Of a stretch of 40,047 nt of DNA, positions 1-35,456 are shown piece by piece. The stretch is taken from NCBI GenBank assembly GCA_027019175.1, contig JALUXB010000060.1, forward strand, positions 1 to 40,047. Direction: 5' to 3'. Under the pieces are notes generated by a model. That model did no database searches. It was not told where the DNA came from and saw only the letters and a program-made list of their open reading frames with translations. This stretch comes from Sulfurovum sp. GTDB taxonomy: Bacteria > Campylobacterota > Campylobacteria > Campylobacterales > Sulfurovaceae. The translations under genes were made by a program, and so were the position numbers. How positions within the stretch are numbered: position 1 is the stretch's first letter; each line of letters opens with the position of its first letter.

Positions 1-988
1 TGAACGACTTTGTATTAAAAGGCATCACCTTTTCCTTCATTTGTACCGAAGCATCAAACCTATGGGCTACTTCCACGGTAAAATCATCACAACTGTCACA
101 ATGGTTCGGTTGCTTTACGATTTTCCACTGAGAGTCTAATGCACCTAAAATTTTTATAAAAAACTCAGAATCTCTAAAAATTCTCTGTTCTGAATTGGCA
201 TTTCGCAAATATGATCTCACAAATTCATGTCCACTTATTTCTTCAACACCATAACACTTTTCGTTCCAATCTAAATGCCCAGGTATTATCATCATAACCT
301 TATCGCAAGAAAGGGTGGTATATCTACTTTTTGCCTCAAGATGATCCGCAGGTACAGCTACTCCAACATTTCTAAAGTAGTTTCTCTGCCATGGTTTAAA
401 GGTTTTTACCATATCGTTTGCCCAAAGGTTCCCTTGAGAATGCGATATAAGCAGGACTCTATGTCCTTTGTCAAAACTAAGTTCCTGATAGTCAGCCGCC
501 ATCTCTTGAACATTGGAAAGATGCGTTATTGTTGCCAAATAGACATAGGCTTTTAGTTTTTCTTTGAACTCTTCAGGATATCCGTTATCAATAATAAACC
601 ATTCCAGCATTTTAAACAGTGAGTGATTATCAACTTGACCTGCTTCCTTCATCTGAACATATGTCTCTACCAAATCAAAAAACTGCTTGAATTTTTCATC
701 ATGATCAGGGTCATTTCGGTACATTCCGTGCCAGTTATATGCTATTTTGAATGCATATTTTTTACCTAAAGGGTTGTTGTCATACATAATATCTTCTTTT
801 CTGATTATACCTTTTTCCAAAAGCTTATCTCGTACTGTATTTTTTCCATCCTTTGCCTGTTTGTAGGTATTCCATACACCATTTCCGAAGTAAATATCGG
901 TAATACACTCACTGTAGTCATTGGCTGCATGCAGTGCTGTATAAAAAAGAACCATGCCTGTAAAAACAATTTTCAGTATATTTTTCAT
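1..988 (-). CDS. Secreted alpha/beta-hydrolase-like protein, 3' end cut by the window edge
   Basis: The frame starts at an ATG at 988 and stays open to base 2, giving at least 329 residues with no stop, so the C-terminus is missing. The N-terminus is a signal peptide (MKNILKIVFTGMVLFYTALHA), which predicts export. Around residue 184 the stretch LLISHSQGNLW looks like the nucleophile elbow of a lipase or esterase; the first Gly of the usual GxSxG is Ser here, as in some divergent hydrolases. A CxxC (NHCDSCDD) lies near the cut end. It begins 4 bp after the stop of the gene at 993-1916, so the two are probably co-transcribed. Substrate and role are unknown, and hydrolase activity is inferred only from the elbow motif. 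Confidence 0.75.
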   Translation of the reverse strand, partial: MKNILKIVFTGMVLFYTALHAANDYSECITDIYFGNGVWNTYKQAKDGKNTVRDKLLEKGIIRKEDIMYDNNPLGKKYAFKIAYNWHGMYRNDPDHDEKFKQFFDLVETYVQMKEAGQVDNHSLFKMLEWFIIDNGYPEEFKEKLKAYVYLATITHLSNVQEMAADYQELSFDKGHRVLLISHSQGNLWANDMVKTFKPWQRNYFRNVGVAVPADHLEAKSRYTTLSCDKVMMIIPGHLDWNEKCYGVEEISGHEFVRSYLRNANSEQRIFRDSEFFIKILGALDSQWKIVKQPNHCDSCDDFTVEVAHRFDASVQMKEKVMPFNTKSF

Positions 989-992
989 CACG

Positions 993-1916
993 CTACTCCT
1001 TCAATCCAGCTAAGTCAAAATCACATGGCTTTTCAAAGTAAGGGTCATCAAACACATGTCCGCTCATATTTCCGTTAAACCTGTAGTATGCCTTGATACG
1101 CTCTTTGGTGTTAAAGGCTTTATTGACATATTCATCATTAAAAATATCATTATCAATTCTATAATTTAAGGATTCTCCCAGTTTCTCATATGTTCTATAT
1201 CCACATTCTAATGCTTTATCTATCAACAAGTACTTCTTGTCTTCATAGGCGGTTTGTGGACTTTGGATAATCTGCTGAACCACCCGCCCCCACTGCAATC
1301 CTATTTCTGTTTTATGTTTAGGATAGTCAGAGTTGGCATACTTTTGAATGACCCACCGCTCCACATCATCCCTGATCCCGTTATGGTTGAAGTCAATCCC
1401 AAGCAGTGTTTCGTTATTTTTATCTTCATCGGGTTCGGGCGGGAGTTTGAAGCCGTTGATCACTTCGGGAACGTAGAAACGGTAGACAATGGGTTTGATG
1501 CGCATCCCCATACCGGGTTTCATTTTCATCAGATGTCTTATGGAGACCTCATAGAACCCTACTTCAAGCGGTTGATCAGGTGTAAAACGCAGGGTGTTTT
1601 CATTTTGGTCGTAGGTGACGGAGCCTTGGATGGTTTTGTTTTTGCTTCTTGAGATGCCGAATCCGAACATTCCCCATTTTTTCTTTTTTCCTGTTAAACG
1701 CTTCAGTATCACACTGTGCATTGTGCTTATGGGATTGAGCGCTTCGTTAAAGACCGCTTTTATGGTCGTGTTGGCATCGGCTTCCGGTGAAGCGGGTGCG
1801 GGTGTGAGTGATGTGATGATACTCTGATCTGTCCCTTCTGACTTGGTAACATCGATCGTTGCTGCAAAGAGCATACCCGCAACTAAAAACAGCAGTAAAC
1901 CTGTAAATTTTTTCAT
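993..1916 (-). CDS. Secreted protein with Ig-like domain and Ca-binding-type loop
   Basis: I chose the ATG at 1916 (307 residues) over an in-frame ATG at 1958. A strong Shine-Dalgarno, AGGAGGAAGAG, directly precedes it, and translation from there opens with a clean signal peptide (MKKFTGLLLFLVAGMLFA). Residues about 35-150 resemble the SbsA-type bacterial Ig-like fold (an N-terminal PAPASPEADANTTIKAVFNEAL stretch and a C-terminal FYEVSIRHL...YRFYVPE strand pattern). Residues 175-184 (DFNHNGIRDD) look like an EF-hand/dockerin-type calcium loop. It is the first gene of a two-gene operon with the hydrolase-like gene downstream. A nine-G tract lies about 52 bp upstream of the start. Function unknown; an extracellular or periplasmic place is inferred. 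Confidence 0.75.
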   Translation of the reverse strand: MKKFTGLLLFLVAGMLFAATIDVTKSEGTDQSIITSLTPAPASPEADANTTIKAVFNEALNPISTMHSVILKRLTGKKKKWGMFGFGISRSKNKTIQGSVTYDQNENTLRFTPDQPLEVGFYEVSIRHLMKMKPGMGMRIKPIVYRFYVPEVINGFKLPPEPDEDKNNETLLGIDFNHNGIRDDVERWVIQKYANSDYPKHKTEIGLQWGRVVQQIIQSPQTAYEDKKYLLIDKALECGYRTYEKLGESLNYRIDNDIFNDEYVNKAFNTKERIKAYYRFNGNMSGHVFDDPYFEKPCDFDLAGLKE

Positions 1917-1948
1917 CTCTTCCTCCTCATGTTTAAAAAATACTTTTA

Positions 1949-1976
1949 AGTATAGCATAGTTCAAACGGGGGGGGG
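1949..1976 (-). promoter_or_regulatory. Candidate promoter with a G9/C9 homopolymer tract
   Basis: On the minus strand a -10-like TATACT (1949-1954) lies 33 bp before the ATG at 1916. Upstream of it, after 13 bp, is a run of nine C (nine G on the + strand, 1968-1976), where a -35 element and its spacer would fall. Homopolymeric G/C tracts of this length often drive phase variation in Campylobacterota. A change in tract length here would alter promoter spacing rather than reading frame. Confidence 0.5.
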
Positions 1977-2046
1977 AATTGATCTGGGTCAAGAGTAAAA
2001 CAAAAGAAGGATACTACAAAAAGCAGAGGAAAGGTTAAAAGCTACT

Positions 2047-2823
2047 TCAAATCCCCAACTCTTTCTGCCTGTTGTCAAGATAGTGATTGACACCTTCGAC
2101 AATCCCTTCGGCAATACGTTCCTGATATTTCGGGTCAAATAGTCTTTCCCGCTCTTTGCTGTTGGTAATGTAGCCTACCTCTACTAATATCGATGGTCGG
2201 CTTGCACCTACCAATACATAAAACGGTGCTGCTTTTGCACCGCCGTTTTTGACATCGGGGTATCTGCTGTGCAGGCGTCTCATAATATTGTTCTGTACAT
2301 CAATAGCAAGTTTGTGTGACTCAACCACTTTGGGTCCTGCCAGTACCGAATCGACAATCACATCTCTGCTCAGTGTATCTGTCCCTTTCAGCACCGCTTC
2401 ATTCTCACGTTGTGCGATACGCTGAGAACGTCCGTCACGTGTCTTTTGGAGATAGTAGGTTTCTACTCCTTCTACTTGTTCAAAACGGCTTTTGTCGGCA
2501 ATGGCATTGGCATGAATGGAGATGAAAACATCTGCATCTTTCTGATCTGCGATGTGTGTGCGTTCCCCCAGTTTCAAAAATCTATCGGTTCCACGTGTCA
2601 TATAGACACGGTAACCTTCGCTTCGAAACTCATTTTGCAGCTTTTTGACAATCTGCAATACCAGGTCTTTTTCCTGTCTACCCCCGCATTGTGCACCGCA
2701 GTCATGACCGCCATGCCCCGCATCGATCACCACCAGCCTGTTGGAACGGTCAGGCCCCATACATCCGTTCAGGCTCAACAAGAAAGCTGCAAGAAGTGCC
2801 CAAAGTGCAATATTTCGTTTCAT
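2047..2823 (-). CDS. Lipoprotein N-acetylmuramoyl-L-alanine amidase without AMIN domain
   Basis: This 258-residue protein is a zinc amidase of the Amidase_3 family, which cuts the bond between N-acetylmuramic acid and L-alanine in peptidoglycan. Zinc ligands H37 (DAGHGG), E51 and H104 (SIHAN) and the catalytic glutamate E215 (VEVGYIT) are all present. A lipobox, LSLNGC, puts the lipidated Cys at residue 21; the next residue is Met, not Asp, so outer-membrane sorting is likely. The catalytic domain starts almost at once, so there is no AMIN targeting domain. It lies 12 bp downstream of a full-length paralog (2836-4062) with very similar sequence, including ASRPSILVEVGYI. This suggests tandem duplication followed by loss of the N-terminal domain and gain of a lipid anchor. 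Confidence 0.92.
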   Translation of the reverse strand: MKRNIALWALLAAFLLSLNGCMGPDRSNRLVVIDAGHGGHDCGAQCGGRQEKDLVLQIVKKLQNEFRSEGYRVYMTRGTDRFLKLGERTHIADQKDADVFISIHANAIADKSRFEQVEGVETYYLQKTRDGRSQRIAQRENEAVLKGTDTLSRDVIVDSVLAGPKVVESHKLAIDVQNNIMRRLHSRYPDVKNGGAKAAPFYVLVGASRPSILVEVGYITNSKERERLFDPKYQERIAEGIVEGVNHYLDNRQKELGI

Positions 2824-34714: not shown

Positions 34715-35320
34715 CTAAAATCTGTACTGGACACCGAAAGTCCAGGCATTCACTTCTACATTGGCCTGTTTGGCAACATAGTCAAACCCTTTGTCATCAT
34801 AGAGCCAAAGATACTCTCCGTAAAAATTCCAGTGTTCCGTAACAGCATAACTGCCACCCAGCCCCCACTGAAAGCCCTCTTCAACAGCATTACCGCCAAG
34901 CAGGTCATTCAAGCGTACCTGTCCAAAACCTAACAGACCATACAGGCTGAAATCACCCATAGTATATTGGGGCTTGAAGTAGACACCCCAATGTGATACT
35001 TTTCCGTCATAGATTTGCACAGGATTTACTATATTTCCCTGATCATACGTTGTGTTGAAGCCAAGCGCATAACGCCCCTCGACAGCAAAATAGGAAGAAA
35101 CCTGATATCCAAGTGACAGTTCTACCATCGTTGCATCGATCTCCTCCCTGCTGAAATCATTTTTTACACTAAGCTGTCCCATACCAAGACCGCCATAAAA
35201 TACACCTGTCTCTTCTGCAACTGCCGGTGTTGTTTCCACAGGTACTATATCTCCTCCTGCATACGCCGAGGCAACAGCCAACGTCCCAAATGCCAATACG
35301 GCCACTACTACTTTACTCAC
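34715..35320 (-). CDS. Outer-membrane beta-barrel protein (OmpA/OmpW-like)
   Basis: This 201-residue protein has a signal peptide (SKVVVAVLAFGTLAVASAYA) and amphipathic strands in alternating pattern, ending with the terminal aromatic pattern AWTFGVQYRF that the outer-membrane assembly machinery recognises. Strands such as GVFYGGLGMGQLSV, MVELSLGYQVSSYFAVEGRY and WGVYFKPQYTM fit a small eight-stranded barrel. The GTG at 35320 was chosen since AAGGAGGAG lies 5 bp upstream; an ATG 39 bp earlier lacks one. It is the first gene of a two-gene unit with the Asp-box lipoprotein and lies behind a candidate GEMM-I riboswitch. Confidence 0.85.
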   Translation of the reverse strand: MSKVVVAVLAFGTLAVASAYAGGDIVPVETTPAVAEETGVFYGGLGMGQLSVKNDFSREEIDATMVELSLGYQVSSYFAVEGRYALGFNTTYDQGNIVNPVQIYDGKVSHWGVYFKPQYTMGDFSLYGLLGFGQVRLNDLLGGNAVEEGFQWGLGGSYAVTEHWNFYGEYLWLYDDKGFDYVAKQANVEVNAWTFGVQYRF

Positions 35321-35370
35321 AATACTCCTCCTTAAAATGTCTATTACGTAACAATGCAATTATTTTGTAT

Positions 35371-35456
35371 GATGTTCTGAGCAGCCTGGCGATCTTCGGA
35401 GAGAAGACCCATAACTTTCCGTCCTGTCCTCACAGACAGTTTGGCTTTGTGCAGAA
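35371..35456 (-). ncRNA. Candidate GEMM-I (cyclic-di-nucleotide) riboswitch
   Basis: Reading the minus strand, the leader has GCACAAAGCCAAAC, then a 6-bp hairpin (CTGTCT/GGACAG) with a GNRA tetraloop GTGA, then GGACGGAAAG, then a second hairpin GGTCTTC-TCTCC-GAAGATC, then GCCAGGCTGC. The order and motifs match my memory of the c-di-GMP-I aptamer (GCACAGGGCAAACC, GNRA hairpin, GGACGCAAAGC, variable hairpin, GCCGGGTTGCC type). A closing helix TTCTG/CAGAA is possible. The 3' end lies 50 bp before the GTG start of the beta-barrel gene. The G that contacts ligand in the class looks like A, seen in cGAMP-type members. No covariance model was run. Confidence 0.6.

Follow-up and report, generated by a model that had tools for sequence, protein, structure and literature searches.

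On balance, we favour the reading that a Sulfurovum promoter with a nine-base homopolymer is a slippage-tunable class II promoter of the FNR/DNR family, in which the tract is a variable spacer, and that it drives a polymorphic pair of secreted proteins. The window analysed here is the whole 40,047-nucleotide stretch of contig JALUXB010000060.1 (assembly GCA_027019175.1), and unlabelled coordinates are its positions. A run of nine G occupies 1968–1976 of the plus strand (C9 on the coding strand), as an earlier sequence-only reading had claimed, and exactly 13 bases separate it from AGTATA at 1949–1954, the minus-strand TATACT which that reading had placed at this distance. The hexamer belongs to an extended -10 element, TGCTATACT (1949–1957, minus strand), which is identical or has one change (TGTTATACT) in orthologous promoters; taking it as -12 to -7 would put the transcript start at 1942 on the minus strand. 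From the tract to the ATG (1914–1916) there are 51 bases, close to the 52 given before, and the start was rightly called well supported: it is followed by a signal-like N terminus (MKKFTGLLLFL), preceded by the ribosome binding site region GAGGAGGAAGAG (1917–1928, minus strand; conserved in orthologues), and identical in orthologues. The proposed downstream operon is also real, with gene 1 at 993–1916 and gene 2 running from 988 until it leaves the contig at base 1.

Beside the tract, and absent from the sequence-only reading, lies a CRP/FNR-type palindrome, TTGAC-CCAG-ATCAA (1979–1992, minus strand), a putative activator box that matches the TTGAY-N4-RTCAA pattern of FNR/DNR-type class II promoters. 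Its centre is 31.5 bp from the first -10 base, at about -43.5, and C9 is a mononucleotide repeat placed between this box and the extended -10. Across five species the half-sites of the box, kept in orthologues, are constant while the four central bases vary (CCAG, CAAG, CCAG, CTAA and CCAA). No -35-like hexamer, the element of a porA-type sigma-70 -35/-10 spacer switch, is present 15–19 bp upstream of the window's -10, where the bases run from CCCCCC to ATTCCC; therefore, the distance that depends on tract length is the one from box to -10. The earlier claim that tract length sets promoter spacing thus stands, but with a different spacing, since a usable -35 hexamer is absent. As read from the sequence, the tract would set activator-to-core spacing, not -35/-10 spacing. 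In addition, the extended -10 could drive some expression without an activator.

The length of the run is in itself unremarkable, because the 2.20-Mb genome (87 contigs) contains three runs of at least nine G/C where 3.5 are expected per 2.2 Mb under a first-order Markov model with the window's composition (0.064 in the window), and its rarity was rejected as evidence. Position and conservation, unlike length, are remarkable. Relatives of gene 1 occur in 33 of 78 genomes of the genus, and upstream bases were compared for the nine that match over nearly the full length. One promoter, TTGAC-N4-ATCAA, TT, C8–10 and GTTTGAACTATG(C/T)TATACTT, is common to the window's own genome and to four other species (G042, G024, G061 and G052), so that the tract does lie inside a promoter, as proposed earlier, and is conserved there between species. 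Its length is 9 in the own genome, 9 in G042, 10 in G024, 9 in G061 and 8 in G052, a difference in repeat number between close relatives that holds at the species level only, these being consensus lengths from MAG assemblies with one genome per species. The 82 bp before the start are 88–94% identical in pairwise comparison among the five species, and fourfold degenerate sites of gene 1 in the same species are 53–73% identical. The promoter travels with gene 1, since the DNA further upstream is unrelated in several of the five.

More distant orthologues extend this picture. G074 has this layout too, although its box is weaker and its tract interrupted (CCCTCCCCC), and a paralogous second copy in G042 has T8C6 where the tract would be. 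C tracts in different flanks, 9 bp before the -10, were found in G034 (C9; locus L258, 42–47% identity) and G007 (C8; L262, 39–43% identity), and in a Campylobacteraceae MAG (L259, 57%) the 19-bp spacer from TTGACA to TATACT contains C9 and would be 17 bp with C7. Of the nine upstream regions compared, that of G021 has no tract; among the loci of the GTDB scan described next, L260 (an Arcobacter MAG, 39%) and L261 have none. Across 11 orthologous loci, namely the window and ten from a scan of GTDB contigs that are mostly from Sulfurovum MAGs, an uninterrupted C8–C10 lies just upstream in eight, an interrupted one in one and none in two; these loci share descent, and the eight are not a tally of independent events. 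C tracts are thus present in at least three promoter layouts of the orthologues, and no run of at least eight was found beside the other family members that were retrieved. In L258 and L262 the C tract is preceded by an inverted repeat, AGATATA-N16-TATATCT, possibly a different operator before the same kind of tract.

The box of the window belongs to a larger set. The pattern TTGAY-N4-RTCAA has 18 sites in the own genome compared with 2 for the reversed pattern, an enrichment of about nine-fold, and 29 compared with 3 in the relative G024. Spacing in this set was examined in these two genomes only, with tract promoters excluded, by counting -10-like hexamers (at least five of six matches, with A2 and T6) at each index, defined as the position of the first hexamer base numbered from the base after the box centre. 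Among 90 oriented flanks of 45 boxes, 23 such hexamers lie at index 29 and 6 at index 30, whereas shuffled flanks gave a mean of 1.2 at index 29 and never more than 9 at a single position across 1000 shuffles. Index 29 is class II geometry, at about -41.5, like that of FNR as described in passages of PMC7713065. The genes adjoining the boxes include those for a cytochrome d1-like protein, a cytochrome c, a NirDL-like siroheme decarboxylase and a siroheme synthase-like protein, as well as the anaerobic ribonucleotide reductase NrdD, a ribonucleotide reductase small chain and a Rieske protein; a Pfam match was obtained for seven of ten box-adjacent proteins, the ten being a non-random sample picked by eye. 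The box loci of the own genome (G000) and G024, L216–L252, have the appearance of an FNR/DNR-like regulon with class II spacing.

A candidate regulator is encoded in the same genome. CRP-type helix-turn-helix domains were detected in eight of nine genomes tried, with six in the own genome, of which four exceed the family cut-off. One CRP/FNR-family protein of 233 residues, encoded beside heme-d1/siroheme genes (G000:C44, L224) in a stretch that also contains two boxes, has the recognition helix ETFSR, of the E-x-x-S-R type that reads TTGAT. In a phmmer search its residues 9–206 match DNR (3dkw) with an E-value of 7.3e-10, the best of those PDB matches that extend into its DNA-binding part. We infer from these sequences that the ETFSR protein may bind the box at 1979–1992. 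According to a review, no FNR orthologue was known in Campylobacterota (PMC6682613); the box set and the ETFSR protein point to an FNR/DNR-like regulon, which is not in strict contradiction with that statement.

Measured in the same way, the index of the tract promoters is 31 with 9 C (own genome, G042 and G061), 30 with 8 C (G052) and 32 with 10 C (G024), 31 in G074 and 34 in the second copy of G042. The window's box at index 31 is therefore not at the preferred class II index of 29, which was seen in no tract promoter and which 7 C would give. The layouts of the window and of L259 are both two bases long at C9, an agreement that is suggestive and no more. In addition, G074 is at index 31 despite its interrupted tract, a hint that this distance could be functional as it is.

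One may argue that the poly-C is a conserved static spacer, acting as a stiff element or a weak -35 substitute, with 8–10 C equivalent and lengths that drift neutrally. We consider this unlikely, although the total length is kept in G074 despite the interruption, exactly 9 C are found in three of the five species and an extended -10 reduces the need for a -35. Against it stand the single-base length changes between species whose flanks are 88–94% identical, the preferred distance to the -10 held by the other boxes of the set, and the recurrence of pure C tracts in other orthologous layouts, where an interrupted spacer would suffice. Alternatively, the box might be a repressor site, such that an FNR-family protein at about -43.5 blocks the extended -10 promoter to a degree tuned by the length of the tract. 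None of the sampled species has the box in the preferred register, and a passage of PMC3656149 reports that the CRP homologue of Treponema pallidum raises tprJ and lowers tprG transcription; nevertheless, the box lies near the class II position relative to the -10, like those of the respiratory gene promoters, and this alternative seems quite improbable. A switch of the classical -35/-10 spacer type, known from porA and fetA and independent of the palindrome, is very improbable, since the C9 between TTGACA and TATACT in L259 would fit it but the window has no -35-like hexamer at the right distance and the palindrome is conserved and part of a regulon-sized set of boxes.

We therefore return to the reading of an activator box whose distance to the core is set by the tract. 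An FNR/DNR-like regulator, probably the 233-residue ETFSR protein, would bind the palindrome at 1979–1992 and contact RNA polymerase at the extended -10, as in class II activation. Slipped-strand gain or loss of one C would move the box by 1 bp, such that 7 C would bring it into the preferred register (about -41.5), while 8 C would leave it one base off, 9 C two and 10 C three. In cells with 7–8 C, anaerobic or denitrifying conditions would then induce the operon strongly, whereas cells with 9 C or more would show weak or basal expression. The result would be a mixed population in which slippage switches the fast-diversifying secreted proteins and respiration gates them. A single-base gain or loss in C9 would thus probably tune or switch the operon, and we infer that tract length alters its output, on at 7–8 C and low at 9–10 C, and that length change would be reversible within a population. 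Because the other boxes give the in-register distance, they predict beforehand which length is on (7, perhaps 8), and metagenome reads that already exist would show the tract length directly. The C-terminal domain of MutL was found in none of eight genomes (controls were detected in 11 of 14), which is consistent with poor repair of slippage, but MutS_I domains were found in seven of eight, such that mismatch recognition may be partly present; an explanation by freedom from mismatch repair is thus half supported and was not adopted.

The proposed targets are two secreted-type proteins. Gene 1 (993–1916, minus strand) encodes 307 residues with a CopC/Big_5-like Ig domain (PF13205, E 2e-7), and its structure model (mean pLDDT 68.8) has a CopC/PcoC-like Ig fold (Foldseek against 1ix2, E 1.8e-5). 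A conserved D-x-N-x-N-G-x-R-D-D motif is followed, from about residue 190, by a polymorphic C terminus that in the alignment differs sharply between species and is common to relatives that are not nearest to each other. Gene 2 (1–988, minus strand), incomplete at the contig end, encodes a secreted-type protein with an SHSQGN motif. A Pfam search with it returned no family above the cut-off and its structure model is poor (mean pLDDT 45.9); to judge by the SHSQG motif, it may be alpha/beta-hydrolase-like. It diverges faster than gene 1 (for example, 35% compared with 66% in G061) and is modular in makeup. Judged by their sequences, genes 1 and 2 fit a polymorphic secreted pair. Positions 1–127 of the window recur as an exact 127-mer within gene-2-type genes on two G024 contigs, although these genes are otherwise different, and are a shared C-terminal module of such genes; the assembly probably broke at the contig end because of this sharing. 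Elsewhere, at least seven adjacent copies of the gene 1 C-terminal domain, in small ORF-sized units, were seen at locus L071 (G029:C1:1365000-1380000). Upstream of the promoter and in the same direction lies a gene for an N-acetylmuramoyl-L-alanine amidase (2047–2823, minus strand; PF01520, E 9.5e-49), and no terminator-like site was found on the minus strand at 1917–2046; the amidase gene is a possible source of read-through into the operon.

A genus-wide family of C-tract promoters was rejected, with a box-plus-C6 match in 20 of 175 genomes of the family and C8 or longer only in the five orthologous promoters, and 35 other tracts of C8 or longer in six genomes, many of them intergenic, include none with this box and core. 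The core TTTGAACTATGNTATACTT, searched with two mismatches in 398 genomes of the order, gave scattered, chance-like matches, while the reversed control scored in many genomes. No alleles were found in viral contigs. A RepG-like RNA pairing with the tract was considered but discarded, since the transcript is inferred to start downstream of the tract.

Several further features were observed on the way. Another C9, at G000:C87:58067-58075 (L137), precedes a lipoprotein-like ORF that begins MKTWQYITTSIVTSIALTGCGGG by about 70 bp. In three Sulfurovum species (L103 1478–1531, minus strand; L147 1474–1528, minus strand; L139 1483–1521, plus strand), a hairpin, AAGAGGTG...CCCCCCCC...CACCTCT, has C8 in its loop, with TATAAT shortly ahead of it in L103 and L147; an Rfam search with these hairpins gave no match, and they are possibly small RNAs or leaders with a C-rich loop able to pair with G tracts. 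The window also contains a c-di-GMP-I riboswitch (RF01051, 49.8 bits; 35377–35455, minus strand), just downstream of which an ORF of 214 residues (34715–35359) looks by eye like an outer-membrane-type beta-barrel.

Homopolymer-switched promoters are known mostly from animal and human pathogens, in which they are interpreted as a means of immune evasion. If the reading proposed here is true, a conserved homopolymer promoter of environmental vent bacteria that is linked to a respiratory regulator and drives a polymorphic pair of secreted proteins would show the same device serving non-pathogens. More tentatively, free-living vent Sulfurovum might couple slippage and an anaerobic/denitrification regulon in series, with the tract as a ruler of one base per step that in the sampled genomes is 1–3 bp out of register with an FNR/DNR-type activator, so that only contraction variants with 7–8 C become fully respiration-inducible; this would be bet-hedging through a secreted pair with C termini reassorted among species, giving a non-pathogen diversity of a contact or antigen-like kind. 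In the open-licence literature we found no paper on phase variation in Sulfurovum and, among the papers listed for phase variation in epsilonproteobacteria, vents and symbionts, none on vents.

Known systems share features with this promoter, and the following comparisons rest on passages of the papers cited. In porA, fetA and opc of Neisseria meningitidis, a homopolymer likewise lies between or at core elements of surface-protein genes (PMC2791445), but there it changes -35 to -10 spacing, whereas here a recognisable -35 is lacking and it is the activator box that would move. In nadA of the same species, a repeat alters the spacing between the sites of the regulator NadR and the promoter (PMC2791445), but the repeat is the tetranucleotide TAAA, the regulator a repressor and its position distal. 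Class II promoters of FNR have the box near -41.5, overlapping the -35 region (PMC7713065), with a fixed spacer, whereas here the spacer is a homopolymer and the box is 1–3 bp too far. Closer still is Bordetella pertussis, where poly-C tracts lie in the fim2 and fim3 promoters, one C moves a promoter-proximal activator relative to RNA polymerase, the product is on the surface, and at the BvgA-activated fim3 promoter a one-base change stops transcription (PMC10172299). The activator there is the response regulator BvgA~P and not a CRP/FNR protein, bacteria and genes differ, and variation is demonstrated there and inferred here. In T. pallidum, the poly-G promoters of tpr genes act with the CRP homologue TP0262 (PMC7864442, PMC3656149), and thus also combine a promoter homopolymer with a CRP-family regulator; this regulator is of another branch, the passages of these two papers mention no respiratory regulon, and the length effect at tprL was established by reporters, compared with sequence only here. 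By analogy, the Sulfurovum tract may work like the fim and tpr promoters, and new here would be an FNR/DNR-type class II promoter with such a tract in an environmental campylobacterotan.
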